NCBI GenBank assembly: GCA_002731275.1
Contig: PCBK01000039.1
Coordinates: forward strand, 1 to 35,336
Length of the DNA: 35,336 nt
Direction of reading: 5' to 3'
From: Deltaproteobacteria bacterium
GTDB lineage: Bacteria; Myxococcota_C; UBA6777
A model generated the notes under the pieces. That model made no database searches and was not told the DNA's origin. It was given only the letters and a program-made list of their open reading frames with translations. The number at the start of each line of letters is the position of its first letter. Position 1 is the first letter of the stretch. Positions 3,310 through 28,215 of the stretch are shown here, one piece after another. A program made the position numbers and the translations under genes.

Positions 3310-6300
3310 CTACTTCTTTTTCAACTGGGACAACAAGATCTTGATCGCACGCTTGAGCTGTGGATCACGTCTAAACTGCTCATCAGTCGGCAAAATAGGT
3401 ACCAGAACATGGGGCACGGCGGGACCATTCTCCATGTTTTTGCGCTTGGGCAACGTCCACCAACCACGGAGCGGCAAACGGAACCACGAACCATCGAGTA
3501 GACGCGCACCACCTGTGGAGATGACCGCACCTGCAGTGGGCATCCCCACAACAGTACCGAGCTTATGAAGCTTCACTGCGTGTGTAAAGATCTCCGCGTT
3601 TGAACCACTTCGCTCATTACAAAGCAGGATAATCGGCTTGTGCCAGTAGTAGTAGGGACGACGGCTGACAGGATATCCACCTCTCTTGGCGTGTCGGTAA
3701 CGTGTGACCGCGTGTGCCTTTGGCAAGAACATCGAGAGCAGACGATCGGCAGTCCAACCACCACCGTTGTTGCGAACGTCGATGATCAAACCCTTCTTGT
3801 CATGAGCGTGTGCATAGAGTTCGCGCTCAAAACGATCGAGGCTCTTCATGTTCATGCTCTGGATATGAAGATACGCAAGCGTTCCCTTGCTCAACGTCTT
3901 CACTTGGTCTCGCACCGCATCAACCCAGGCGTTATAGCGTTGTTGATACGTGTGGCGGAAGCCGATCGGACGGATGTAGAAGAATCGAGTCTTACCCTCA
4001 CGTGAGATCTTCAACTCGACCTTACGTCCGACCTTCCAGTCGAGATACTTATAGAGATTGACATCTTGTCCGAGTGGCTGACCGTTGAGCGCCAACAAAA
4101 CGTCTCCCTTCTTGAGGAGGCTACGACGGCGAGCGGCAGGACTTTTGGGACGGACATAGGCGATCTTAAGTCCCTTCCCTTTGTAGGACGCATCAAAACG
4201 AACACCCAATTCACCAGTGCGGCTCTTGGGTCCTTTCTTTCGATGATAAATCCCCAGGTGACTTGCGTTCAGCTCACCGAGCATCATGAAGATGACATCA
4301 TCGAAACCATCACGTGTCACAGTTTGTTTGATCAGGTGGCGATAATCTGCGCGGATTTTGGCCCAGTTGGCACCGTGGAAGGTAGGATCGTAGAAGCCGT
4401 GATTGATGATCCCCCACGCTTCTTCGAACAACTGCAGACGCGCCATATCACGACGCCCACTCCACTCCGCGACAAAACGCACGGGCTTGGGACGCGCTTT
4501 ACCACGCATCCCCAACGCGACGATAGTACCGCCTTTGCCAATGAAGTAGAGCGCCCCTTTGGCACCCCACTGCAATTGACTCGCGGGGCCTTTGTACAGA
4601 CGACGAAGACCTTTGCCATCCCAACCAATGCGGTACAATCCCTTCAGCTTCCCACGCACTGTAAAGTAGAAGGTGCTACCATCTGCAGAGAGCAGGAGCT
4701 GATTGGGTCCACTACCAGGCAACCCTGTCAGTGAACGCAGACGGAAGGCCAAGCCTTTTTTATCGATACGCACGAGGTGACGGCGCTTCTTCTTACCTTT
4801 TTTGTGAGCTTTGTCCTTCTTGGCTTTTTGCGTTGTCGGCGCTTTCTTGGTTTTCTTCGACCTCTTGCCTTTTTTGCCTTTTTTACCTTTTTTACCTCTC
4901 TTGCCTTTTCTACGCTTGGAGGCTTTCTTCCAGCGTTTAAAGGTCCGGATCAGCTCCTCACAGCTCTTTTCATGATCGACACTGCGCAAAAATGCGTAGC
5001 GGATCTGCATACGATCGAAGACACCATTTGAGAGATACGCCATCATCTTCCCGTTGGCTGACCAGACAGGTCGCACATCGGTGTCAGGGAAACGGCTGAT
5101 GTTGAGAGCCGGCTTTTTACCGCTCGCGTGGACGAGGAAGATATCATCATTGGATTGGTAATCTGTACGGGAGAACAAGAACCAACGACCATCTGGAGAC
5201 CACTGAAAAGCACCGATATTCCAGTCCTTCGTCACCACACGTTCTTTCTTCCCATCGACAGAACGAACGACGAGTTCGCCGTTACCACGGACAAACGCGA
5301 TCTCATTCTTTTTGGGCGACCAATCGGGACGATGTTCGATCTTCTTGTTCCCTTTGGGTGTCCAGCGCGTGATCTTGATTCGGAAGGTCTTGGACAAAGA
5401 GAGCTTCTTCTTTTTGCGCATCCCTGCGTGGGCGAAGTAAATGGCCTTGTCTCCCCCTTTGTTAGAGGTAAAGGCGAGCGTGCGTCCGTCAGAAGACCAC
5501 GTCAGATGTTGTTCACGCCAATCGTTATGTGTCACACGTCGAGCCCATTTTACGGGGTCTTTGAGGGATTTGACGTAGACATCTCCTCTGAGCACAAACG
5601 CGACCTCTTTTTTGTTGGGAGAGAGCGCAAATTCGGACACACCGCGACGTAGGATCTTTCTCATGAAGACATTTCGGGGAACGTCAGCGGTCGCTTTGAT
5701 GTTGATCTCAGCGAACTTACCGAGGTCTACGTGATACTTGAACAGTTTGTCCCACTGTGAGAAGACGACGACCTTCCCGTCACGACTTGCCCGGACATAG
5801 CGAACACCATGTCCTTTAAAGTGGGTCAGTTGTCTGCGAGCCTTGGACTTGAGGTGCATGGACCAGAGGTTGAATGTCCCGCCCTTCTCGGAGCGATACA
5901 CGATCGTATCTTTGCCGATAAAGTTCGGATAATCATTGGTCATCTTCTCAGGAGTGAGGGAGGTGTAGGACTTTTTTGTGCGGTCATACATCCAGACATT
6001 GCGGTGGTAGGGGTTGGTGTTGTGTTTGCGCCACCAACGACGTGAGCCACGGGTGTACACAAAGAATCGACCATCTGCGGAGATATCACCGCTCACACCT
6101 TGTACAGGCAAAAAGTACGTGGGCATCCCGCCTTTTGGGGAGATCTGAAAGAAGTATCTTCGCCACAATGCACCGAGCACACGGGTTGAATAGAAGACGA
6201 TCTTTTTGGTCACAGGATCCCAGAATAGAGGTGTATCGGGACGAGAGTGGTAGGTCAGACGTTTGGGGAGACCACCTGTCGCGCGCATCACGTAGACATC

Positions 6301-6573
6301 ATCGTTCCCAAAACGCCTAGAAGCAAAGGCGATCCACTTGCCATCGGGGGACCACACAGGGTGGTGGTCGAAGGCTTTATGTGTCGTCAACTTTCGAGCG
6401 GTCCCACCGTGTGAGGCGACGACCCACAGGTCACCGCGCCAACTAAACACGACCTTGGAACCATCAGGAGAAACGGCCGGGTGTCTGGCAAACTTAACCT
6501 CGACACTGGCCTGTGCTGGGTGAGCGAGCAAAAGACAAAGTCCAAAAGCCCACCAAAAGGCGATCTTTCGCAT
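3310..6573 (-). CDS. Tricorn-like S41 protease, exported
   Basis: The 1087-residue product has a signal peptide (cleavage near AQA, residue 22), so it probably acts in the periplasm rather than in the cytoplasm like archaeal tricorn. Residues ~25-530 contain repeated SPDG / W blade motifs of PD40/TolB-type beta-propellers. A Lys/Gly-rich stretch (about 546-600) interrupts the chain, then a second short propeller follows to ~700. The tricorn core lies at ~705-775 with the S771-H772 pair (ELNASHLG). A PDZ domain spans ~780-870, and the C-terminal S41 domain contains the likely nucleophile S991 (RSGSNAE). Archaeal tricorn has Ser-Asp at that point; here it is Ser-Asn. GAGGAG lies six bases before the ATG. 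The family degrades peptides; the substrate here is unknown. The Lys-rich insert is not a family feature that I know of. Confidence 0.88.
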   Translation of the reverse strand: MRKIAFWWAFGLCLLLAHPAQASVEVKFARHPAVSPDGSKVVFSWRGDLWVVASHGGTARKLTTHKAFDHHPVWSPDGKWIAFASRRFGNDDVYVMRATGGLPKRLTYHSRPDTPLFWDPVTKKIVFYSTRVLGALWRRYFFQISPKGGMPTYFLPVQGVSGDISADGRFFVYTRGSRRWWRKHNTNPYHRNVWMYDRTKKSYTSLTPEKMTNDYPNFIGKDTIVYRSEKGGTFNLWSMHLKSKARRQLTHFKGHGVRYVRASRDGKVVVFSQWDKLFKYHVDLGKFAEINIKATADVPRNVFMRKILRRGVSEFALSPNKKEVAFVLRGDVYVKSLKDPVKWARRVTHNDWREQHLTWSSDGRTLAFTSNKGGDKAIYFAHAGMRKKKKLSLSKTFRIKITRWTPKGNKKIEHRPDWSPKKNEIAFVRGNGELVVRSVDGKKERVVTKDWNIGAFQWSPDGRWFLFSRTDYQSNDDIFLVHASGKKPALNISRFPDTDVRPVWSANGKMMAYLSNGVFDRMQIRYAFLRSVDHEKSCEELIRTFKRWKKASKRRKGKRGKKGKKGKKGKRSKKTKKAPTTQKAKKDKAHKKGKKKRRHLVRIDKKGLAFRLRSLTGLPGSGPNQLLLSADGSTFYFTVRGKLKGLYRIGWDGKGLRRLYKGPASQLQWGAKGALYFIGKGGTIVALGMRGKARPKPVRFVAEWSGRRDMARLQLFEEAWGIINHGFYDPTFHGANWAKIRADYRHLIKQTVTRDGFDDVIFMMLGELNASHLGIYHRKKGPKSRTGELGVRFDASYKGKGLKIAYVRPKSPAARRRSLLKKGDVLLALNGQPLGQDVNLYKYLDWKVGRKVELKISREGKTRFFYIRPIGFRHTYQQRYNAWVDAVRDQVKTLSKGTLAYLHIQSMNMKSLDRFERELYAHAHDKKGLIIDVRNNGGGWTADRLLSMFLPKAHAVTRYRHAKRGGYPVSRRPYYYWHKPIILLCNERSGSNAEIFTHAVKLHKLGTVVGMPTAGAVISTGGARLLDGSWFRLPLRGWWTLPKRKNMENGPAVPHVLVPILPTDEQFRRDPQLKRAIKILLSQLKKK

Positions 6574-6843: not shown

Positions 6844-8226
6844 ATGGGTAAATTATGGGGTGGTCGATTCACGGGTGATATCGATGCAACATTTGATCTG
6901 TTTAATGCATCCTATTCATTCGACAAACGTCTCTTTGAAGCGGATGTCGTAGGTTCACAAGCCTATGCAAAGGGACTGCATAAAGCGGGAATACTGGATG
7001 ACAACGAGCACCAAACACTCCAAGATGCTCTCGCCGCGCTCCTCGAAAAAGGCCGCACCGATCAAGCTTTCATCGATCAAGGCGTGACAGACGGCGTAGA
7101 AGACATTCACAGTTTTGTCGAATCTGCGCTCATCGCAGAGGTCGGAGATGTTGGACGAAAGCTCCACACAGGACGCAGCCGCAACGATCAAGTCGCCACA
7201 GACATCAGACTCTATCTTCGCGACGCAATCGAAGGGATCAAGGAACAACTCACCACCCTCTCACAAACACTCATCGAGAAGGCTGAGGCCCACCCAGAGG
7301 CCGCGCTCCCTGGCTACACACACCTACAAAAAGCGCAGCCGATCTTGCTCGCACATTATCTCCTCTCCTATGTCGAGATGTTCTTACGCGATCGAGATCG
7401 CCTCACAGACGTACACAAACGCGTCAACATCCTTCCCCTCGGCTCCGCAGCGATGGCAGGGACCAACTACCCTATCGACCGACACTTTCTCGCAGAGACG
7501 TTGGGATTTGACGATATCACTTACAACAGCATGGACGCGGTCAGCGACCGTGACTTTGTCCTCGAATTCCTCAACGCCGCCAACCTGATCATGATGCACA
7601 TGAGCCGCCTGTCGGAAGACCTGATCATCTACGCATCGACGGAGTTCAAATTTGTCAGCATGAGCGACCAAGTCTCCACAGGCTCATCGATCATGCCACA
7701 AAAAAAGAACCCCGACGCGCTCGAACTGATCCGCGGAAAAATGGGGCGCGTCGTCGGCGCTTACACCACTCTCTCAACTGTCCTCAAAGGACTCCCGCTG
7801 TGCTACAACAAAGACCTGCAAGAGGACAAAGAGCCTCTGTTCGACGCGATCGATACGGTCAGCATCAGCCTCGAAGTGATGAACACTGTCATCGCGACGA
7901 TGATCGTGCACGAAGAACACATGAATCACTCTGCCTCACGCGATTATCTGAGCGCCACAGAGCTCGCGGACTACCTCGCACGCAAAAAGCTCCCCTTCCG
8001 AGAAGCACATGAGGTCGTTGGCCGCGTCGTCCTCGGCTCTATTGATCAAGGAAAACAGCTCGACGAGTTGACCCTTGAAGAATACAAGGCGTATCATCCC
8101 CTCTTCGAAGAAGATATCTTTGACGCCATCTCTCTCAAGAGTACACTCTCACGAAAAGATGTCCCCGGAGGCACTGCCCCAAACCGCGTCACAGAGGCTA
8201 TCGAACACGCGAAGAAGCGTTTGTAA
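6844..8226 (+). CDS. argH: Argininosuccinate lyase
   Basis: The enzyme splits argininosuccinate into arginine and fumarate, the last step of arginine synthesis, as a cytoplasmic homotetramer. The 460-residue length is normal for the family. The N-terminus MGKLWGGRF, the HTGRSRNDQV block and the fumarase/lyase signature GSSIMPQKKNPD (residues ~280-291, holding the catalytic serine) are all intact. CAGGAGAG lies upstream of the ATG. It stands alone on the plus strand, 5.3 kb from the end of the minus-strand argRCDB operon and divergent from the tricorn-like gene, so it has its own promoter. argG, which makes its substrate, is not in the window. Confidence 0.97.
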   Translation: MGKLWGGRFTGDIDATFDLFNASYSFDKRLFEADVVGSQAYAKGLHKAGILDDNEHQTLQDALAALLEKGRTDQAFIDQGVTDGVEDIHSFVESALIAEVGDVGRKLHTGRSRNDQVATDIRLYLRDAIEGIKEQLTTLSQTLIEKAEAHPEAALPGYTHLQKAQPILLAHYLLSYVEMFLRDRDRLTDVHKRVNILPLGSAAMAGTNYPIDRHFLAETLGFDDITYNSMDAVSDRDFVLEFLNAANLIMMHMSRLSEDLIIYASTEFKFVSMSDQVSTGSSIMPQKKNPDALELIRGKMGRVVGAYTTLSTVLKGLPLCYNKDLQEDKEPLFDAIDTVSISLEVMNTVIATMIVHEEHMNHSASRDYLSATELADYLARKKLPFREAHEVVGRVVLGSIDQGKQLDELTLEEYKAYHPLFEEDIFDAISLKSTLSRKDVPGGTAPNRVTEAIEHAKKRL

Positions 8227-8769: not shown

Positions 8770-8960
8770 AGCAGCTCATCGCGGGCTCCAAAAAAAACGC
8801 TCTCCCTCCTCCTCTCCGACACAAAATCAATGACCTCGCCAGACTTGCCACACAAAGCAAAAAAAGGCATACTCAACACAACTTCACTCAAAAATAAGAA
8901 ATTGAAGATTTCTTGTCGTTCTATTACCAAAACAAACATGGATGTTGTGAGGGCGGTGTT

Positions 8961-11900
8961 ATGCTTCGAAAACAAATTTTTTTGCTATGTATACTGGGGG
9001 CTCTCGTTGCGCTCTTTAACGCAGGAGGCTGCTCATCAGGGCAACGAGCCTGCCAGACTGACGACGATTGCACAAGCGAAGCCCCCTATTGTCTCGATGG
9101 CTATTGTAGCCAACAACAATGTAACCCCGGACAAACCAAGTCCTGCTACGAAGGACCACCCAACACAGAAGGCGTCGGATTATGCAAAAAAGGCACCCAA
9201 CTTTGTCGCGAAGACGGTGCTTGGTCCAAGTGCTTCAACCAATATACCCCCAGAAAAGAATATTGTGATCTTCAAGACAACGACTGTAACGGAAAAGTTG
9301 ATGATCTTGACGGCACAGAAAATAGCCCAAAATGTATCTGCAAAACCCTCGCCCAAGAACGTAGATGTTACCAGGCTCGCGACAAAGTCATCGGTGTCGG
9401 CGAATGTTTTGAAGGCGTCCAGACGTGCAAAAAGGTCGACCTTGGACTGCGCTGGGGTCCATGTCGCGATCAAGTCCTCCCCTCCCTCGAAGTATGTGAC
9501 GGCCGAGACAACGACTGCAACGCTGAAACTGATGATAACAAGCGTTGCAAGTGCTACAAAGGCGACACACAGCTCTGCTTCACCTACCCACTGCGCTTTG
9601 CCACCAAAGGACTCTGTCGTGCAGGCATCCAAACCTGTAACGAAAAGACCAACAGCTATGAAGGACAGGAATGCAAAGAGCAAATCGCCCCCAAAGACGA
9701 TGAAGACTGCACAACTCCTGGCGACGATGACTGCGATGGCGTCCCAAACGAGGGCTGCGCCGCCTGTGAAGCGGGAAAAACATCTTGTGCTGGAACCTGT
9801 GTCAATACAAAAACCAACGCTGAACACTGTGGACAATGTGGCAAAAAATGTAGTGCCGGTGAATCTTGCGTAGACGGAGCATGTAGCCTCTCCTGTGGTG
9901 GCAGCACGCCCACGCCCTGTGGCAATGCTTGCGTCGATACAAAGATAAACCCTAAACATTGCGGACAATGTGGCAACGATTGTGGTCCAGGCGAAGTTTG
10001 CTCAGACGGGACGTGTGGCCTGTCTTGTGGTGGTACGACGACAAAATGTGGAGGAGAGTGTGTTAACACCAAAACCGATCGCAAGCACTGTGGAGCGTGC
10101 GATCAAGAATGTACCACAGGTCAAGTCTGTTCAGACGGTCAATGTGGCCTGACGTGTGGCGGCAAAACCCCTACACTCTGTGGCGATGCTTGCGTCGATA
10201 CCCAAACGGACATCAAACACTGTGGTGAGTGTGGGACCGCCTGTAAAGCAGGTGAGGTTTGTTCTGGCGGCAAGTGCGGTCTCTCTTGTGGTGGCGCTAC
10301 GGCTACAAAATGTGGAAATGCCTGTGTTGATACCCAAACCAACGCCAGCCACTGTGGGGCTTGTGATAGCAAGTGTGCCTCCGGTGAGGTCTGTTCTGGC
10401 GGCAAATGTGGACTCTCCTGTGGTGGCGACACCGCCACCAAGTGTGGAAACTCCTGCATCAACACACAGGCAGACACCAATCATTGTGGTGCTTGCAACA
10501 GCAAATGTGCCTCTGGTGAGGTCTGCTCTGGCGGCAAATGTGGCCTCTCCTGCGGTGGCGACACCTCCACCAAGTGCGGAACGGCGTGCGTCAACATCCA
10601 AACCAACGCCAGCCACTGTGGTGCCTGCAACAAACCATGTAAAGCAGGAGAGTCTTGCATCAAAGGCGCCTGTGTCCTCTCCTGTGGCGGTGACACCCCT
10701 ACACGCTGCGGAAATGCCTGTGTCAATACGAGCAACAACCCCCAACACTGTGGCAGCTGTAGCAACGCCTGCGCAGCCGGACAGCTCTGCTCCTCTGGAA
10801 CCTGTGGACTCTCTTGCGGAAACAACACCCCCACAAAATGTGGCGACCGCTGTGTTGATACAACAGTCGACAACCAACACTGTGGTGCTTGCAACAATAA
10901 GTGTGCCTCAGGCGAGGTCTGTTCTGGCGGCAAATGTGGACTCTCTTGTGGCGGTAGCACCGCGACACAGTGTGGAACAGCGTGTGTCAACACACAAACA
11001 GACCGAAACCATTGCGGTGGATGTGGAAAGAAATGTGCTGCCGGTGAAGTTTGCTCTGGTGGGACATGCAGCCTCTCTTGTGGTGGCGACACCTCCACCA
11101 AGTGCGGAAATGGTTGTGTCGACATCCAAACCAATATCAACCACTGTGGCGGATGTGGGAAAAAATGCGCCGCCGGTGAAGTCTGTTCTGGCGGCAAGTG
11201 TGGCCTTTCATGTGGTGGCGCGACTCCAACTCGATGTAGCAACGCTTGTGTGGATACACAGAGTAACCCACTTCACTGTGGTGCTTGTGGACAAGCCTGC
11301 GCCACAGGACAAAAGTGTGAAAATGGAGCTTGCAGCCTCTCTTGTGGAGGGTTGACTCCCCTCAAATGTGGAAACGAGTGTGTGAACATGCACACAAACA
11401 GACGACACTGTGGAGGATGCAACCAACCATGTGCCTCTGGTCAGATCTGTTCAAGCCGAGTCTGTCAGTACACCTGTGGTGGCAACACCCCCACACAATG
11501 TGGAAGTGCATGTGTCGACACCAAAACAGACAGACTGCATTGTGGGAGTTGTAATAGCCCTTGCAAAGCAGGCGAGATCTGTGTGAACAGTGTTTGTACT
11601 CTCTCCTGTGGCGGCAACACTCCCACAAAATGTGGTAGCGACTGTGTCAACACACAAACCAATCCCAAATATTGTGGAAACTGCCTCAACTCCTGCTTTG
11701 CTGGCCAAAAATGCGTGGGCGGCAGCTGTGTCACAGAGTGCCCTTCGGGTTCATCAAAGTGTGGTGGAATCTGTGTCGACACACAAACCAACCACAAACA
11801 TTGCGGAGCCTGTAATGTTACCTGTGATGTTCACGAACGCTGTGACAACGGCACATGTACAACCCCATGTACAGGCGATCAGGAGAAATGTCAGGACTTC

Positions 11901-12026
11901 AACGATCCAACACGCACGATCTGTGTTGATACCAAGACCAACCCACGACATTGTGGAAGATGTGAAAAAGATTGCATTGTTGATGGGCAAAAGTACTGCG
12001 AAAATAGTGTCTGCAAAGGCGGCTGA
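8961..12026 (+). CDS. Giant Cys-rich repeat lipoprotein with MopE-like motifs
   Basis: The ~1021-residue product starts at ATG 8961 (GAGGGCGG upstream) with a lipoprotein signal ending in AGGC (Cys24), so it should be membrane-anchored. The N-terminal ~270 residues hold DNDCNG..DD-type acidic motifs (CDLQDNDCNG, CDGRDNDCNA, DDDCDGVPNE) as in MopE-like putative metal-binding proteins. From about base 9760 to the stop there are 17 tandem units of mostly 44 residues with eight cysteines each, pattern SCGG.TPTKCG.ACV.T.TN..HCG.C...C..GE.C..G.C; the final units diverge and lengthen. The domain is seen in myxobacterial-type surface proteins; its function is not established. Cysteine spacing suggests many disulphides. 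DNA similarity among units 5-7 and 9-11 is high, so copy number may vary. Confidence 0.88.
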   Translation: MLRKQIFLLCILGALVALFNAGGCSSGQRACQTDDDCTSEAPYCLDGYCSQQQCNPGQTKSCYEGPPNTEGVGLCKKGTQLCREDGAWSKCFNQYTPRKEYCDLQDNDCNGKVDDLDGTENSPKCICKTLAQERRCYQARDKVIGVGECFEGVQTCKKVDLGLRWGPCRDQVLPSLEVCDGRDNDCNAETDDNKRCKCYKGDTQLCFTYPLRFATKGLCRAGIQTCNEKTNSYEGQECKEQIAPKDDEDCTTPGDDDCDGVPNEGCAACEAGKTSCAGTCVNTKTNAEHCGQCGKKCSAGESCVDGACSLSCGGSTPTPCGNACVDTKINPKHCGQCGNDCGPGEVCSDGTCGLSCGGTTTKCGGECVNTKTDRKHCGACDQECTTGQVCSDGQCGLTCGGKTPTLCGDACVDTQTDIKHCGECGTACKAGEVCSGGKCGLSCGGATATKCGNACVDTQTNASHCGACDSKCASGEVCSGGKCGLSCGGDTATKCGNSCINTQADTNHCGACNSKCASGEVCSGGKCGLSCGGDTSTKCGTACVNIQTNASHCGACNKPCKAGESCIKGACVLSCGGDTPTRCGNACVNTSNNPQHCGSCSNACAAGQLCSSGTCGLSCGNNTPTKCGDRCVDTTVDNQHCGACNNKCASGEVCSGGKCGLSCGGSTATQCGTACVNTQTDRNHCGGCGKKCAAGEVCSGGTCSLSCGGDTSTKCGNGCVDIQTNINHCGGCGKKCAAGEVCSGGKCGLSCGGATPTRCSNACVDTQSNPLHCGACGQACATGQKCENGACSLSCGGLTPLKCGNECVNMHTNRRHCGGCNQPCASGQICSSRVCQYTCGGNTPTQCGSACVDTKTDRLHCGSCNSPCKAGEICVNSVCTLSCGGNTPTKCGSDCVNTQTNPKYCGNCLNSCFAGQKCVGGSCVTECPSGSSKCGGICVDTQTNHKHCGACNVTCDVHERCDNGTCTTPCTGDQEKCQDFNDPTRTICVDTKTNPRHCGRCEKDCIVDGQKYCENSVCKGG
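9766..12020 (+). repeat. Coding tandem repeats, ~132-base unit, 17 copies
   Basis: These are the DNA copies underlying the 44-residue Cys-rich units. Some neighbours are nearly identical over long stretches (for example around 10380-10560 and 10905-11215), as expected from recent duplication or gene conversion. The periodicity keeps other frames open on both strands, which produces long spurious open frames. Confidence 0.9.
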
Positions 12027-13477: not shown

Positions 13478-14377
13478 TTACATTGTCATACCATCCTGGA
13501 AGATCATCGTCCCCGTCCCAGCCTTTGTGAAGATCTCTTTGAACAGAACATTCCGACGCAAGCCATTGATGATATGTGCGCTTTTTACGCCACGTTCGAC
13601 AAGATGAATGATCGATTTGAGCTTTGGCAACATCCCCTCGGAGATCTCGCTGGAGTTGTAGAGTGTTTTGGCTTCTTCGAGTGTAAGGCGGTTGATCTTG
13701 GTCGACGGATCGGAGAAGTCACGATAGATCCCATCGACATTGCTCAAGAGCAGGAGCTTCTCGGCCTTCAGGTGGACAGCGATCTCTGCAGCGATCGTGT
13801 CGGCGTTTACGTTAAAGACATTCCCTTGATCGTCTGCCGCGAGAGAAGAGACCACGGGAATGTAACCGCCGTTGAGCAACAGACGCAAGAGATCCGTATC
13901 CACCTTCACGATGTCCCCGACATGCCCGAAGTCCACCATCTCCTTCTCACCGGTCTCTCGGTTGGTGATGGCCTGTGCTTCTCGACGCTCAGCGTGTAAC
14001 ACATTTCCATCGATACCGGAGATCCCGACAGCTTTTGCACCCATTTGACGGAGTGTGGAGAGGATGTCTGTACGGATTTGACCGGCAAAGACCATCTTCG
14101 CGAGCTCAAGGGTCTTACCATCTGTCACACGACGACCATCGACGATCGTCTGTGGGACATCAAGTTTGTTCGCCATCTCAGTCAGCTGCTTTCCACCACC
14201 GTGCACGAGCACGACATAAAAGCCAACCTGCTGAAAGAGCGCAACCTCCTCCATCAAAGACTTGAGATACTCCTTGTTCTCCGTCACTTTGCCGCTGAGT
14301 TTGATGATAAACACCTTACCGTCAAAGTGCTGGATATATGGAAGGGCTTCACGAAGCAAATCGAGCGAGTCATTCAT
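13478..14377 (-). CDS. argB: N-acetylglutamate kinase
   Basis: It phosphorylates N-acetylglutamate in the second step of arginine synthesis. The amino-acid-kinase fold is clear: IIKLSGK near the N-terminus, VLVHGGGKQ (nucleotide/substrate loop), DGRRVTD, and NVNADTIAAEIA plus LLLSNVDGI in the C-terminal lobe. Before the first strand is a helix ending REALPYIQHFDGK, which matches the N-terminal helix of arginine-inhibited hexameric kinases and is lacking in the arginine-insensitive E. coli type, so feedback inhibition is likely. I prefer the ATG at 14377 (299 residues, usual length). A GTG at 14431 overlapping the argD stop would add 18 residues with no family match. It is the last gene of the argRCDB operon. 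Confidence 0.93.
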   Translation of the reverse strand: MNDSLDLLREALPYIQHFDGKVFIIKLSGKVTENKEYLKSLMEEVALFQQVGFYVVLVHGGGKQLTEMANKLDVPQTIVDGRRVTDGKTLELAKMVFAGQIRTDILSTLRQMGAKAVGISGIDGNVLHAERREAQAITNRETGEKEMVDFGHVGDIVKVDTDLLRLLLNGGYIPVVSSLAADDQGNVFNVNADTIAAEIAVHLKAEKLLLLSNVDGIYRDFSDPSTKINRLTLEEAKTLYNSSEISEGMLPKLKSIIHLVERGVKSAHIINGLRRNVLFKEIFTKAGTGTMIFQDGMTM

Positions 14378-14430
14378 CACTAAAAAACCTTTTTTATCAT
14401 TGGAGGGAGTGATTGGACGGGAAAAGGACA

Positions 14431-15606
14431 CTATCCAAGCGCGGAGAGAACCTCTTGTAGTGCATTGAGAAACAAATCGATCTCTTGTTGTTTCAGCGTG
14501 AGTGGTGGCAACAAACGCATGACATGGTCATCGCCGGATAGACCTGTGATGATCTGTTTTTTCAAAAGCGCCTTTTGAACGTCCGAAGCAGGTCGCTCAA
14601 AACGAATCCCCATCAGGTATCCGAGGCCAAGACTTTCGACAACACCATCGATAGACGCGAGCTTTCCGCGCATATACTCGCTCTGCTGGTTGACATTGTC
14701 GAGCAGATCTTCTTCGAGAATCGTCTGGATCGTCGCTTCGAGCGCAGCGCTCGCGAGTGGTCCACCACCAAAGGTCGTCCCGAGATCACCGTAATTGATG
14801 CGATTGGCGATATCATCGCTGGTCAAGATCGCGCCCATCGGCATCCCACTCGCGATGCCTTTTGCGAGGGTCGCCAGATCAGGCGTTACACCGTATCGTG
14901 AGGAGAAAAAGAACGTTCCAGTCCGACCAAAACCAGTCTGCACCTCATCGTAGATCAACATCGCGCCATGCTTATCACAAAGCGCGCGTAATCCTTGATA
15001 GTACGCTGGTTCTGCCATACACACACCCGCCATACTTTGGATCGGTTCGAGGAGGATCCCGCCAATCTCTTCTTTCTCCATCAAAGCAGCCACCGCGTCG
15101 AGATCGCCAAAGGGCAAAAAGAAGTGCTTGTCGATCCGTGGTGAGAATGCCTCTCTGTACTTGCTGATCCCTGTCGCGCTCAACGCGCCAATCGTCCGAC
15201 CGTGGAATCCACCTTCAAAGGATATAATGCCGGACTTTCCGCTCATGTGACGTGCGAGCTTGATCGCGTTCTCGTTGGCCTCAGCCCCGGAGTTGATAAA
15301 GAAGATATGCTTGAGGCCTTCTGGAGCGACCTCTCCAAGGGCTTTGGCAGCTCGTGCTCTCGTGTCGTTGTACACGAGGTTGGAGAAGAACATAAAGCGC
15401 TCGGCCTGTGACTTGATCGCCTCGACGACGCGAGGGTGACAGTGACCTGTCGAGACAACTGCATGTCCGCCATATAAATCAAGATAGCGCGTGCCATCTT
15501 CATCCCACACCCACACATCCTCACCACGGACCAACGTGAGAGGAAATTTCTTGTATGTTTTGAGTTGATATTGTTCTTCCACAAGCTGTGTTTGTGTCAA
15601 TGTCAT
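14431..15606 (-). CDS. argD: Acetylornithine aminotransferase
   Basis: This class III PLP aminotransferase turns N-acetylglutamate semialdehyde into N-acetylornithine, using glutamate as donor. The 391-residue length is typical. Visible marks are DLYGGHAV and GHCHP near the N-terminus, NSGAEANENAIKLAR (PLP phosphate binding), FHGRT, IYDEVQTGFGRTG (the PLP-contacting Asp) and LAKGIASGMPMG with the Schiff-base lysine K249. It could also use succinyl-diaminopimelate, as ArgD enzymes often do. AAAGG lies ~10 bases before the ATG. It sits between argC (38 bases upstream) and argB in one transcription unit. Confidence 0.96.
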   Translation of the reverse strand: MTLTQTQLVEEQYQLKTYKKFPLTLVRGEDVWVWDEDGTRYLDLYGGHAVVSTGHCHPRVVEAIKSQAERFMFFSNLVYNDTRARAAKALGEVAPEGLKHIFFINSGAEANENAIKLARHMSGKSGIISFEGGFHGRTIGALSATGISKYREAFSPRIDKHFFLPFGDLDAVAALMEKEEIGGILLEPIQSMAGVCMAEPAYYQGLRALCDKHGAMLIYDEVQTGFGRTGTFFFSSRYGVTPDLATLAKGIASGMPMGAILTSDDIANRINYGDLGTTFGGGPLASAALEATIQTILEEDLLDNVNQQSEYMRGKLASIDGVVESLGLGYLMGIRFERPASDVQKALLKKQIITGLSGDDHVMRLLPPLTLKQQEIDLFLNALQEVLSALG

Positions 15607-15643
15607 CGGTTGTTTAACCTTTCGTGGTGTGCCCTTTGGGCAT

Positions 15644-16675
15644 TTAAGGATGTGTCCCAGGGAAAAAGAGCCCGGCCTTCTCAGGCAGGCCCATCATGAC
15701 ATTCATGTTGTGAATGGCCTGCCCGGAGGCGCCCTTCACGAGATTATCGATCGCGACGAAGACTGTCACTTCAGCACCATCAACAGCCCAGCCGATATCC
15801 GTAAATTGTGTGGTCTTGACCCAGTTGACGTCTGGAGATGAACCCACCAGTCGCACAGACCATGCATCTGCATAATATGCAGAAAATGCCTCAGCCACTT
15901 CATCGTGGGTCATGGGTTGGCGCAGCGTAGCGTAAATGGACGCGAAGATACCACGCACCATCGGCGCAGAGTGGGTTTGAAAGACAAATGGCTGTGACCA
16001 TGTGGGGTCGAGTTGTCGGAGCCATTGCTCGATCTCAGGCTGGTGTCTGTGTGCATAAGATTTATATGCATAAAAACTGTTGCTACGTTTGGGGTGATGT
16101 GTGCCCGCTGAGGGCTGATTTCCAGAACCAGAGGAGCCGGTCTTGGCGTCGACAACGATCTTACCTGTCAACAACTTCTGTGAGATAAGGGGCGAGAGTC
16201 CCATCAACGTCGCGGTCGCAAAACATCCGGGGTTCGCGACATAATCGGACGTCGCGATTTGCTCCTTGTTGCTCTCCGTCAGACCGTAGGCGAACTTTGA
16301 CTGAAGCGAAAATGCGGAGTGTTCACACTTATAATAGTGTTCATAGATCGCTTGATCACGTAGACGAAAATCACCGCCTAGATCGATGACCTTGACCCCT
16401 TCGGGGATAGAGGGGATGATCTGCATACTCTTGTTGTGAGGGAGGCCAACAAACAATACGTCGACATCGCCCCAATGGCCTTGTTCATCATTGGACTGAA
16501 AGACAAGCTCTGTCAGTCCACGTAAGTTCGGATGGACCTCATCGACACGCTTTCCCGCTTTGGAGTGGGCCGTCGCAAACACGATCTCCACGTGGGGGTG
16601 TCCGAGCAACAAGCGCAACAGCTCACTCCCACCATACCCTGAACCACCGATGATACCAGCCTTTACCGTCTCCAT
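15644..16675 (-). CDS. argC: N-acetyl-gamma-glutamyl-phosphate reductase
   Basis: It reduces N-acetylglutamyl phosphate to the semialdehyde with NADPH, between ArgB and ArgD. The 343-residue protein has the Rossmann start GIIGGSGYGGSEL, the active-site cysteine C151 in VANPGCFATA, and the SGSGNQPSAGTHHP loop typical of the longer ArgC form. AAGGGA lies eight bases before the ATG. It is 43 bases downstream of argR and 38 bases upstream of argD on the same strand. Confidence 0.97.
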   Translation of the reverse strand: METVKAGIIGGSGYGGSELLRLLLGHPHVEIVFATAHSKAGKRVDEVHPNLRGLTELVFQSNDEQGHWGDVDVLFVGLPHNKSMQIIPSIPEGVKVIDLGGDFRLRDQAIYEHYYKCEHSAFSLQSKFAYGLTESNKEQIATSDYVANPGCFATATLMGLSPLISQKLLTGKIVVDAKTGSSGSGNQPSAGTHHPKRSNSFYAYKSYAHRHQPEIEQWLRQLDPTWSQPFVFQTHSAPMVRGIFASIYATLRQPMTHDEVAEAFSAYYADAWSVRLVGSSPDVNWVKTTQFTDIGWAVDGAEVTVFVAIDNLVKGASGQAIHNMNVMMGLPEKAGLFFPGTHP

Positions 16676-23991: not shown

Positions 23992-24065
23992 CGTGGTTCA
24001 ACATCACCATACTATGACCTACTGCGGGAATCACTGGCGGAATAACAGAAACATTGAGGTGTAAC

Positions 24066-24869
24066 ATGACCAGTAGAAGAGTGTTTTTTGCGCTTGCTAT
24101 CCTCTTGTCCTTCGCGCTCATAAGCTGCAAAGACAAGACCACGCCCAAGAAAAGAAAGGCGCCCACAAAAAGAAGAGAGACCACCAAGCCCAAGAAACGG
24201 GTGGAGAAAAAAGTAGAGAAGAAAAAAGACGACGGCGAAGTCGACATGAAGAAAGAACACTTTCGCCTCGCAAACAAAGTCCTCGACGCTGTCATCGAAG
24301 GTAGCCTGGACAAAGCCAAAAAAGCCGGTGAGTGGCTCGCATCTGCAGACCGTCTCAAAGAGCTCCCCAAAGCGTGGGCACCACACTGGAAAGGTGTACA
24401 AGACGCAGGAAAGGCCCTCACAGAGGCCAAAGATCAACAAGCTGCTGCGCTCGTTGTCTCCAAGCTCGCTGTCGCTTGTGGTGCCTGTCACACAGCCATG
24501 AAGGCCAAGATCAAGCTCAAAGACGTCCCACTCAAAGATGGACCCAAAGGCACCAAGTCATACATGCTCCGTCACATCTGGGCTGCTGCTCGTTTCTGGG
24601 AAGGGCTCTCCACTCCCGACGACAAAGCCTGGGTTAAGGGTGCAGAGGCGCTCGCAAAAGACAAATACCTCCACAAAAAACTCTACGCAGCCAAAAGCAA
24701 ACTGCAAAAAGAGATCCGTGGTTGGGCCAAATTTGTCTACAAGATGGGCAAAAAAGCAGCCAAGCTCAAGAAAACCAAAGACCGCGCTAAGTTGATGGGA
24801 ACGCTCATGCAAGGTTGCTTCCACTGCCACCAAAAAATGTATGTGGATCTCAAGCAATTCCCACACTGA
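24066..24869 (+). CDS. Dihaem cytochrome c lipoprotein
   Basis: The 267-residue product has a lipoprotein signal ending LISC (Cys21), then a strongly Lys-rich linker (about 22-62), then a helical domain. Two haem-attachment motifs are present: CGACH (138-142) and CFHCH (251-255), ~113 residues apart. Helical spacing and Lys/Ala-rich composition suggest a two-domain helical-bundle cytochrome; the precise family is not clear to me. It should be anchored in the periplasm or at the outer membrane as an electron carrier. GAGGTG lies six bases before the ATG at 24066. It is the first gene of a plus-strand redox cluster, 121 bases before the cyclic-nucleotide/flavoprotein fusion. Confidence 0.85.
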   Translation: MTSRRVFFALAILLSFALISCKDKTTPKKRKAPTKRRETTKPKKRVEKKVEKKKDDGEVDMKKEHFRLANKVLDAVIEGSLDKAKKAGEWLASADRLKELPKAWAPHWKGVQDAGKALTEAKDQQAAALVVSKLAVACGACHTAMKAKIKLKDVPLKDGPKGTKSYMLRHIWAAARFWEGLSTPDDKAWVKGAEALAKDKYLHKKLYAAKSKLQKEIRGWAKFVYKMGKKAAKLKKTKDRAKLMGTLMQGCFHCHQKMYVDLKQFPH

Positions 24870-24990: not shown

Positions 24991-27549
24991 GTGGACCACT
25001 ACATTCAAGTCCTTCAAGATACAGGGCTCTTCAATACACTCCACAAAGATGAATTTCTTCGACTCGCTGAAAAAATCCAGCCTGTCACGTATCCGCCTGG
25101 TGAGTGGATTATTCGCGAAGGCGAGATTGGTCGCGAGCTCTTCATCATTTTGGAAGGCGCCGTCCAGGTCATCGGCCAAACACTCGAAGGTGAGGTCGTC
25201 CTCGCAAAACTCACCGATGGCGCCTTCTTTGGTGAGCAGGCCCTCCTGCACCCCGGACAAACGGAACGTAACGCCTCGATCCGCTCATTCACCCACACAA
25301 AGCTGCTCAAGATCACCAAGAGCGACTTCCAACAAGTCCTCTCCACAAGCCAGTCACTCAAAGCACTGCTCGTACATGAAGGTCGTAAACAGCTTCGCGA
25401 CAGGATGCGCAAACAGTCGGAGTTGTTCCGCAGTCTGAAGGTCACAGATCAGCTCAAGTGGCAAAAGACACTTCATTTTTCTCCGGGACAGACGATCTTC
25501 AAAAAGGGTCAACCAGGGAAATACTTTTATCTCATCGGTCTCGGCGCCGTCAAACTCTACAAAGAAAAAAACGGCAAGCCCGAGTTCCTCGCATCCCTCA
25601 ACAAAGGACAGTGTTTTGGGGAGCTCGCGCTGATCGAGAACAGGAAGCGTTCGGCAACAGCTGTCGCAGAATCCAACGTCGAGCTGCTCGCGATCGAAAA
25701 GGCACAATTCGCAGAGCTATACAATCACTCTCCAGAGTTACGTGACTACCTGCAAACGCTCCAAAAGGCGTACAATATCGCCAATCAGGGCTTCGTCACG
25801 CAGCACTCGGGCCAATTTATGGGTTACGAGAGCACGACCAACCTCTTCCATCTCGAAGACGGTCGTGTCGCCATCTCGTCGTTTGTCAAAGGTCAAAACC
25901 TGTTTAACATGCACTTTGTCGACGATGACGACGATGAAGCGCTCGATACAGAGTACACGTACATACGCTACGAAGACCCGACCAAAGACATCGATCGAGA
26001 GATCATCTTGAGTGATTCTCGTATTGTTGGGATGACCATCCAGGGTCCGTGGACAGAACTTGGTCGTGTCCAGCGCAAGATGCTCAATTCTTCGCGTATC
26101 AGTGAGCGTGAGGTTGAGCGCTTCCAAAGAGAAGGTGCCCTGCTCGACCTGATGAGGACGACCTTCGCCAACAACGAGATCCTTTGCCACTGCCTTCAAG
26201 TCAGTCGTGGGGACCTTCGTGAGTTGATCCGCGATGGTGTGAACACGACCGCAGGACTCGCGATGAAGACAGGCGCTGGGACTGTTTGCGGTTCATGTCA
26301 CATCCAACTCGAAGCCCTCCTGGGACGTGCTGATTGGACCACTGTCGAGATCCGAGAAGAGATCCCCCTCACCGAAGACATAAAGACATTCCGTCTCTAC
26401 CCGACAAAAGGCAAGCTCAAGCCTTTCTTGCCAGGACAACACATCGTCGTACAGGCCCGCATCAATGGCCACTGGGTCCAACGCCCCTACACTCTCACTT
26501 CCGTCTACGACAACACCGAGTATCGCGAGATCACTGTCAAAGCCATTGAAAATGGCTACTTCAGCAAATGGCTGTTTGAGACCCGCAAGCAACCCATCTA
26601 CCAAGATACCCTCATCCAAGTCTCGCAACCTCAAGGGAATTTTTATACAGAGCTTCACGCTCCAAACCCCATCGTCTTCTTCGCAGGCGGTATCGGCGTC
26701 ACTCCCGCGATCGCGATGGCCCGCGCGTTCAACGAAAAACACGGACACCCTCCACTCTACATCGACTATTCGATCTCCTCCCCTGAACAAAACGCCTTCG
26801 CTGACGAACTGCAGGCTATCGCAGAGAAGAACAACAACATCAACGTCAATCTCCGAATCACCGCATTTGACGGTCGCTTACAGCCTAAAGAGATCAAGAA
26901 GGTCACGCGAGAGTATCCTGGCGCAATGTTTTACGCTTGTGGTCCTGAGCGCTACCAAAAGATGGTGGAGACTTCGCTCAAAAAAGCCCGCGTCAAACAA
27001 GAACGCATCCACGTTGAAGCCTTCGAGAAAGTCAGCACGGCCCCACTCGCGGCGGCGTCCAACACCTCTAAGTCATACATTTGGTTAGGTCTGGCATTGC
27101 TCATGGGTTTTCTCGTGCAATCCTTTGCGGGGCTTGAATGGTCATGGCTCGCGTCGATGCAAAGTGGTGAATCCTACCAGCGGTGGAGTGGCTTGTTCTT
27201 AATGACCTTCATCTTGGTACAGTGGATATTGCCAGCCCTACGACTCGCGAAACGATACCAAGAGGCCGCTCAATTCTATCCTGCGCACAAGTATCTCGGC
27301 GCGCTCTCGCCGCTGGTCTTCTATGTCCACTCGATCAAATTTGGTTATGCCTTCTTGGGCTTTTTGAGCATCACTTACTTTCTCAACACCTTCTTGGGAT
27401 TGTTCAACAAAGAGCTCCTGACGACATCCTCCAACACGACGCTCAAAGAAGGCTTCACTTTCTTTTGGCTGATCACACACATTGTCCTCTCGCTGATGAC
27501 CCTCTTGTTGATGCTGGTGCATATCTTTTTGGTGTTTGGTTACCAATAA
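24991..27549 (+). CDS. Fusion: two cNMP domains, [2Fe-2S], flavoprotein reductase, membrane b-type domain
   Basis: The 852-residue protein has, in order: cyclic-nucleotide-binding domain 1 (~15-120, FFGEQALL...RNAS); domain 2 (~145-240, FGELALIENRKRSATA, a full phosphate-binding cassette with R220); an unknown region with an acidic run (~260-390); a BFD-like [2Fe-2S] site (C399-x-C401 and C433-x-x-C436); a ferredoxin-NADP-reductase-like domain (~450-680, FAD motif RPYTLTS, NAD(P) motifs GGIGVTP and YACGPERY); and a C-terminal membrane domain (~695-850) with H766, H780, H830 and H844 as possible b-haem ligands. The GTG start follows GGAG by six bases. I infer a cytoplasmic NAD(P)H-oxidising module, gated by a cyclic nucleotide, feeding electrons across the membrane to neighbouring c-type cytochromes. 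I know no characterised protein with this exact order. Confidence 0.85.
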   Translation: MDHYIQVLQDTGLFNTLHKDEFLRLAEKIQPVTYPPGEWIIREGEIGRELFIILEGAVQVIGQTLEGEVVLAKLTDGAFFGEQALLHPGQTERNASIRSFTHTKLLKITKSDFQQVLSTSQSLKALLVHEGRKQLRDRMRKQSELFRSLKVTDQLKWQKTLHFSPGQTIFKKGQPGKYFYLIGLGAVKLYKEKNGKPEFLASLNKGQCFGELALIENRKRSATAVAESNVELLAIEKAQFAELYNHSPELRDYLQTLQKAYNIANQGFVTQHSGQFMGYESTTNLFHLEDGRVAISSFVKGQNLFNMHFVDDDDDEALDTEYTYIRYEDPTKDIDREIILSDSRIVGMTIQGPWTELGRVQRKMLNSSRISEREVERFQREGALLDLMRTTFANNEILCHCLQVSRGDLRELIRDGVNTTAGLAMKTGAGTVCGSCHIQLEALLGRADWTTVEIREEIPLTEDIKTFRLYPTKGKLKPFLPGQHIVVQARINGHWVQRPYTLTSVYDNTEYREITVKAIENGYFSKWLFETRKQPIYQDTLIQVSQPQGNFYTELHAPNPIVFFAGGIGVTPAIAMARAFNEKHGHPPLYIDYSISSPEQNAFADELQAIAEKNNNINVNLRITAFDGRLQPKEIKKVTREYPGAMFYACGPERYQKMVETSLKKARVKQERIHVEAFEKVSTAPLAAASNTSKSYIWLGLALLMGFLVQSFAGLEWSWLASMQSGESYQRWSGLFLMTFILVQWILPALRLAKRYQEAAQFYPAHKYLGALSPLVFYVHSIKFGYAFLGFLSITYFLNTFLGLFNKELLTTSSNTTLKEGFTFFWLITHIVLSLMTLLLMLVHIFLVFGYQ

Positions 27550-27591: not shown

Positions 27592-28215
27592 ATGACATCC
27601 AACATGCAACCCGAACGCGCTAGAGTCTGGGGATACATCGTCGGCGGACTGGTGAGTGTGATCTGCATCCTCATTTTGTGGCTCCCCGGCATGGAGGGAC
27701 TGAAAGCCATCGGACCCCACAACACAGGACACAAAGACTTCCCATGTGCGTCGTGCCACAAGCCCACAAAAGGAATCTTTGTCAGACATAAAAAGGTCGA
27801 CAACAAGGTCTGTTTAGAGTGCCACCAGCGCAACAATGACCTTCACCCAACGGAGCAATTCCTCAAGCCCAAATTTGCCAAACAGCGCAAGTTGTTTGCA
27901 CCTCACTTGTGTACTTCATGCCACAAGCAGCACAAGGGTGTGCGCGTAACGATTGAGACCACAGTGTGTCGACACTGTCACCAAGATCTCAAGCCGGAGT
28001 TCGACCCCCTCACCCCCACACACGAAGAGTTGGCCAAACAAAAACGCTTCGATACATGTACACGATGCCACGACTTTCACGGGAACCATATTCGGCGACG
28101 TCCCAAAAGACTCGAAGATGCCGCGTCAGTAAAAGACATCAAACAATACTTTCTTGGCGGAAAAGACCCATACTCCGACAAAAAACTCCACAACCCCAAG
28201 AAACCCAAAAAGTGA
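27592..28215 (+). CDS. Membrane-anchored pentahaem cytochrome c
   Basis: The 207-residue product has one N-terminal membrane segment (about 12-32) without a cleavage site, then a periplasmic domain with five CxxCH motifs: CASCH (52-56), CLECH (74-78), CTSCH (107-111), CRHCH (126-130) and CTRCH (156-160). Extra histidines (H43, H47, H66, H85, H105, H114) could be distal ligands, as in cytochrome c3/c7 and NapC/NrfH-like proteins. The layout resembles a NapC/NirT-type quinol or b-haem partner, but the haem spacing is not identical to families I can name. It follows the fusion gene by 42 bases with AGGAG before its ATG, so the two are surely co-transcribed. The tail is Lys/Pro-rich. Confidence 0.9.
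   Translation: MTSNMQPERARVWGYIVGGLVSVICILILWLPGMEGLKAIGPHNTGHKDFPCASCHKPTKGIFVRHKKVDNKVCLECHQRNNDLHPTEQFLKPKFAKQRKLFAPHLCTSCHKQHKGVRVTIETTVCRHCHQDLKPEFDPLTPTHEELAKQKRFDTCTRCHDFHGNHIRRRPKRLEDAASVKDIKQYFLGGKDPYSDKKLHNPKKPKK

Follow-up and report, generated by a model that had tools for sequence, protein, structure and literature searches.

Tandem CNB domains gate PKG, which serves as a model for cyclic-nucleotide control of the protein described here; mycobacterial Pat acetyltransferases provide a further precedent for a CNB-containing enzyme, and NOX5, which is under Ca2+ control, is an analogue of the gating proposed below. FRD and NOX proteins join a cytoplasmic FNR-type reductase to a bis-haem membrane domain in which the haem histidines lie on TM3 and TM5 (PMC3591440). 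In CNB family 13 ('Bact_Pyrredox'), a pyridine nucleotide-disulphide oxidoreductase carries tandem CNB domains (PMC2246266). A Rubredoxin_C-BFD segment is found in NirB and NasB.

The window, which is the whole stretch of 35,336 nucleotides analysed here, is contig 44 of a metagenome-assembled genome (MAG). It encodes one protein that resembles each of these systems in part. As in Bact_Pyrredox, tandem CNB domains and a flavin reductase are present in one protein; that family differs in its N-terminal pyridine nucleotide-disulphide oxidoreductase, and no BFD or membrane chain is named for it. Pfam detected no Pyr_redox domain in the window protein. The Rubredoxin_C-BFD segment is shared with NirB/NasB, whereas their sirohaem, molybdopterin and Pyr_redox_2 domains are absent, and Pfam gave no match to sirohaem nitrite reductase domains. 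The cytoplasmic FNR and the predicted bis-haem arrangement on TM3 and TM5 are those of NOX/FRD, but five helices are predicted rather than six, the membrane domain is C-terminal, and there is an extra [2Fe-2S] site and a multihaem cytochrome partner. Judged by its sequence, the protein would work like NOX/FRD, yet it fails the Ferric_reduct Pfam test (PF01794; no match at E 0.1 with the whole sequence searched).

We favour, with moderate confidence, an electron-transfer chain that leads from NAD(P)H to a c3 cytochrome and is under cAMP or cGMP control by the cNMP pair. Electrons would leave NAD(P)H in the cytoplasm for FAD, then pass to the BFD [2Fe-2S] cluster and the two b haems. The inner haem would be held by H766/H830 on the cytoplasmic side and the outer haem by H780/H844 on the periplasmic side; the outer haem would hand electrons on to the pentahaem c3-type cytochrome encoded next door, with the upstream di-haem lipoprotein a probable further acceptor. 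The N-terminal cNMP domains would bind cAMP or cGMP and change either how accessible the reductase is or how electrons leave it. The predicted electron-transfer chain is well supported by sequence, with all catalytic motifs intact; the gating step is more conjectural. If the head works, it would let cAMP or cGMP control redox flow across the membrane with neither transcription nor a kinase involved.

Domain composition of the window protein

The main gene has a GTG start, and the ORF was confirmed as real and nearly as first described. Matches to cNMP_binding (twice), Fer2_BFD, FAD_binding_6 and NAD_binding_1 all passed the Pfam cut-offs, which bears out the two cNMP domains, the BFD-like [2Fe-2S] site and the flavoprotein reductase of the preliminary description. 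Domain matches, motifs, conserved residues and the neighbouring genes back its central proposal, in which a cNMP head is joined to an NAD(P)H electron-transfer chain across the membrane. The features are listed in Table 1.

Table 1. Features of the operon and of the window protein.
Feature	Coordinates	Strand	Evidence or remark
Putative lipoprotein, two CXXCH haem-c sites	24054..24869	+	lipobox-like LISC; CGACH and CFHCH
Main gene	24991..27549	+	852 aa; cNMP-cNMP-Rubredoxin_C-like-BFD-FNR-5TM
cNMP domain A (aa 1-130)	24991..25380	+	PF00027
Phosphate-binding cassette A (aa 80-96, FGEQALLHPGQTERNAS)	25228..25278	+	sequence; key residues kept in G003 homologue
cNMP domain B (aa 131-262)	25381..25776	+	PF00027, best stretch 161-246
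Phosphate-binding cassette B (aa 210-224, GELALIENRKRSATA)	25618..25662	+	sequence; degenerate in G003 homologue
Diverged Rubredoxin_C-like segment (aa 285-395, clearest from 315)	25843..26175	+	BLAST to NasA C-termini; TIGR02374 NirB
BFD-like [2Fe-2S] domain (aa 397-445)	26179..26325	+	PF04324, 9.5e-11
FNR-type FAD and NAD(P)H domains (aa 454-660)	26350..26970	+	PF00970, PF00175
Five-helix membrane domain (aa 695-850)	27073..27540	+	four invariant His (766, 780, 830, 844); no Pfam match
Membrane-anchored pentahaem c3-type cytochrome	27592..28215	+	PF14537, 7e-10

Residues 260-390 had previously been described as matching nothing recognisable. This is now largely explained, with 262-284 falling outside the assigned domains. 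Residues 315-444 match the C-terminal end of Bacteroidota NasA (BLAST E 9e-13), where the Pfam domains are Rubredoxin_C and Fer2_BFD; the stretch was recovered again when the whole genome was searched with NasA (E 4.3e-7), and the NirB model TIGR02374 matches residues 335-466. By alignment, residues ~319-395 are a diverged NirB/NasB-type pre-BFD segment, which is Rubredoxin_C in NasA. The acidic run reported earlier is present (DDDDDE), within or just ahead of the Rubredoxin_C-like segment. The predicted [2Fe-2S] ligands, C399-x-C401-x31-C433-xx-C436, fit the BFD pattern CxC-x31-33-CxxC. FAD_binding_6 covers residues 454-551 (1.5e-10) and NAD_binding_1 residues 564-660 (7e-6); the sequence contains an FAD motif of the RxY[ST] type (R498-P-Y-T) and the NAD(P) motifs GGIGVTP and CGP. 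Flavohaemoglobin reductase structures match residues 445-678.

The complete fusion of cNMP head and membrane domain was found in one MAG only, which counts against the favoured reading. The genome-contig scan returned no whole-length relative of the 852-residue protein, and a plasmid search with the same query gave no whole-length match, the Flammeovirga module being the sole match. Viral contigs scanned with the G003 homologue, described below, gave none. The MAG (10.75 Mb) is in 200 contigs with 5.5% contamination, which would be compatible with separate genes having been joined by an assembly error or a frameshift. This is nevertheless highly improbable, as there is a single open frame without stops, the head architecture recurs in the G003 homologue, and a matching c3 gene follows 42 bp 3' on the same strand. 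A single-sequence AlphaFold model of the full-length protein was uninformative (pLDDT 39).

The cyclic-nucleotide-binding head

PF00027 matches the protein in two stretches with an E-value of 8.7e-46 (154 bits against a cut-off of 27.5). Among solved structures, residues 6-244 are closest to the tandem CNB pair of cGMP-dependent protein kinases, with PKG and PKA structures aligning, and a Pat acetyltransferase model matches the CNB part. Direct gating of a redox enzyme by cyclic nucleotides had been called unusual; the family 13 and Pat precedents weaken this. Since CNB-flavoenzyme fusions are known (PMC2246266), the kind of protein is known too, and it is the fusion architecture and its module that were not found in the literature searched. 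The searchable literature, outside which most subscription papers lie, held nothing direct on the fusion architecture or the operon, and no name was found.

Both phosphate-binding cassettes are canonical-looking (A, G81-E82...R93-x-A-S; B, G210-E211...R220-S-A-T), and through E82/R93 and E211/R220 both agree with GE..L...R.A[ST] and with the motifs of PMC2246266. The preliminary description was right that the second cassette is intact in the window protein, but the first appears equally intact. The only whole-head relative found is a stand-alone cNMP-cNMP-BFD-FNR protein of 711 aa (G003), from the family of the window organism, which is 32% identical and has no membrane part. As cassette A is retained in this homologue and cassette B is not, the earlier stress on B should take in A as well.

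The chain may instead operate as proposed with cNMP domains that serve in oligomerisation or docking, or that bind another ligand, and no cAMP/cGMP gating. We regard this as unlikely, though it is the alternative that deserves the most weight. The loss of cassette B in the lone homologue points to it, as does the observation that CNB domains often take other ligands or none (PMC2246266); it is opposed by the two canonical-looking cassettes of the window protein, by the retention of cassette A in both proteins and by the cyclase domains encoded in the genome. Six class III cyclase-domain matches were found there, which makes a ligand for the head plausible. The many other cNMP-domain proteins of the same genome count against the gated chain.

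Two minor observations concern these proteins. cNMP domain A scores 2.7e-24 against the family 2B encapsulin model NF041163, well under its cut-off, probably merely because that encapsulin family also contains a cNMP domain. The gene for the soluble G003 relative (L009:1519-4871) adjoins a cytochrome P450 gene, and by this arrangement its product could be the redox partner of the P450.

The membrane domain and its neighbours

The C-terminal ~160 residues had no Pfam match. The four candidate haem-ligand histidines noted earlier, H766, H780, H830 and H844, are invariant in 11/11 aligned homologues. The AlphaFold model of this domain, built from a 10-row alignment with the plasmid-record row left out, has five helices (pLDDT 89); helix 3 carries His766/780 and helix 5 carries His830/844. 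The four histidines thus lie on two helices with a spacing of 14 residues in each pair, within the 13-14 of NOX/FRD. From sequence and model, the domain is predicted to be a bis-haem b carrier. Foldseek returned no match to the model at E<1. In the structural comparison, cytochrome b (Z 7.0-7.5) and NOX5 (Z 6.3-6.6) were among the rows, none being above helical background; this lack of a confident template fold match tells against the favoured reading, and the placement of the histidines on helices 3 and 5, as in FRD/NOX, speaks for it.

The shared FNR and bis-haem logic could also mean that the outer haem reduces O2 or Fe(III) directly, as in NOX or ferric reductases, and that the c-type cytochromes are incidental. 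The histidine placement, the NOX5 rows (not above background) and the imelysin and DHOR genes that adjoin one Chloroflexota copy of the membrane domain are in keeping with this. The lack of a Ferric_reduct match is not, and c3 adjoins the membrane domain in most of the loci examined and is fused to the reductase in some; we therefore consider direct reduction of O2 or Fe(III) improbable.

For the favoured chain, the pentahaem c3-type cytochrome is the predicted periplasmic electron partner, by its sequence and position. It is 39% identical to the cytochrome of the Flammeovirga operon (E 8e-56). The upstream gene, separated from the main gene by 121 bp, is probably the first gene of the operon; its product is weakly cytochrome c'-like (Cytochrom_C_2, E 0.0076, under the Pfam cut-off). 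There is no Tll0287-like gene in the window, the upstream gene encoding a different haem-c protein, and the absence of this partner weighs against the proposed chain. No globin gene was recognised among the ORFs flanking the operon.

Elsewhere in the window, 8913-12026 (+) encodes a large, repetitive, Cys-rich protein in which a CG-x-CV-T-HCG-C unit occurs about a dozen times, and 3310-6573 (-) a Tricorn-like protease candidate with a lysine-rich insert (KKGKKGK). Genes resembling argH (6844-8226, +) and argB, argD and argC (13478-16675, -) are arginine-biosynthesis-like by sequence appearance.

Related modules in other bacteria

Plasmid tblastn identified a 158-residue Flammeovirga protein that is 39% identical to the membrane domain (E 4e-37). 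On plasmid p1 of Flammeovirga kamogawensis (KM029_RS25535-25560), it is encoded in an operon with FNR-Fer2, c3 cytochrome, Tll0287-like protein, globin and hemA genes. The genome-contig scan yielded 11 further membrane-domain loci in Bacteroidota, Chloroflexota and one gammaproteobacterium; c3 and Tll0287-like genes accompany most of them, and FNR and globin genes several. The p1 module and its relatives (Cytophagales, Saprospiraceae, Chloroflexota, the gammaproteobacterium) share with the window a homologous four-His membrane domain, c3 and, where linked, an FNR-type reductase with a [2Fe-2S] cluster. They differ in having separate genes, plant-type Fer2 in place of BFD, no cNMP domains, and Tll0287-like and often globin genes in the cluster, the latter two being common rather than universal. 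The window operon likewise places the membrane domain beside a homologous c3. The membrane domain-c3-FNR operon in Flammeovirga, and the relatives in other phyla that keep the gene set wholly or partly, support the favoured chain. A recent preprint finds that stand-alone Tll0287-like domains have a redox function and not one in gas sensing (PMC12889525), which fits the view that the gene set serves electron transfer. In Saprospiraceae, FNR-Fer2 and c3 form one protein with a hydrophobic stretch between them; this places the flavin on the cytoplasmic side and the c haems outside, and likewise speaks for the favoured chain.

Other heads were also found. The genome G876, which belongs with G032 and G889 to a phylum other than that of the window, encodes Pyr_redox_2-Rubredoxin_C-BFD on a related membrane domain (L076:6880-8922), detected by profile (E 6.7e-7 in a ten-sequence test). 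This fusion shares the Rubredoxin_C-BFD segment, the membrane domain and an adjoining c3 with the window protein but has a disulphide-reductase-type flavoprotein instead of FNR and no cNMP domains; its occurrence is a further point for the favoured chain. In its operon (L076:4868-9570), the fusion gene is accompanied by genes for a Tll0287-like protein and a ten-haem c3, and a globin gene lies on the opposite strand; this is apparently an undescribed redox cluster. G889 has FNR-Fer2 and a more distant four-His membrane protein with an adjoining c3 gene. In G001, from the window's own family, an N-terminally extended FNR-Fer2 adjoins a more distant four-His membrane protein (L075:6827-11061); a repeat-rich GMRRRGM protein precedes the FNR-Fer2 gene.

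From the different heads in G876, G889, G001 and the window, the membrane-c3 core appears to accept different flavoproteins. We take it to be an unnamed module whose heads are interchangeable and which is predicted to pass electrons from NAD(P)H to a periplasmic cytochrome; the window protein accordingly reads as a chimera of cNMP pair, Rubredoxin_C-BFD, FNR and membrane domain. Among the loci found, only the window has a cyclic-nucleotide head on this module. A wider view is put forward tentatively: the window protein may be a cyclic-nucleotide-gated transmembrane electron valve, switched directly by the second messenger, in an unnamed and widely scattered bis-haem reductase family whose heads (FNR-Fer2, Pyr_redox-BFD, cNMP-BFD-FNR) were swapped between lineages.

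The membrane domain is rare. It is absent, with c3, from 4/4 other genomes of the window's phylum (five genomes in the comparison set). One phylum gave no match besides the centre genome among 395 genomes, and another gave one besides the centre among 400. This undescribed five-helix, four-His domain nevertheless accompanies a c3 cytochrome in several phyla and, as small separate genes, is open to cloning and testing.

The Cytophagales copies (L050, L051, L033, L034) lie within nitrate-assimilation clusters that hold NrtABC, NasA with Rubredoxin_C-BFD, nitrite reductase, hemA, globin and CcmF-like genes. Such a setting would suit an inward flow, from periplasmic c3 through the b haems and the cluster to FAD, with NAD(P)H or reduced ferredoxin as the product that could, for instance, feed nitrate assimilation. 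We think this has little likelihood for the window protein, flow from FNR to the cytochrome being the simpler reading. The best NasA match in the window genome is a different molybdopterin enzyme that spans only NasA residues 6-697, and a nitrate role in the window organism is thus unsupported. The gene for this molybdopterin oxidoreductase (G000:C35:221717-223744) contains one in-frame TGA, and its product is possibly a selenocysteine formate dehydrogenase.
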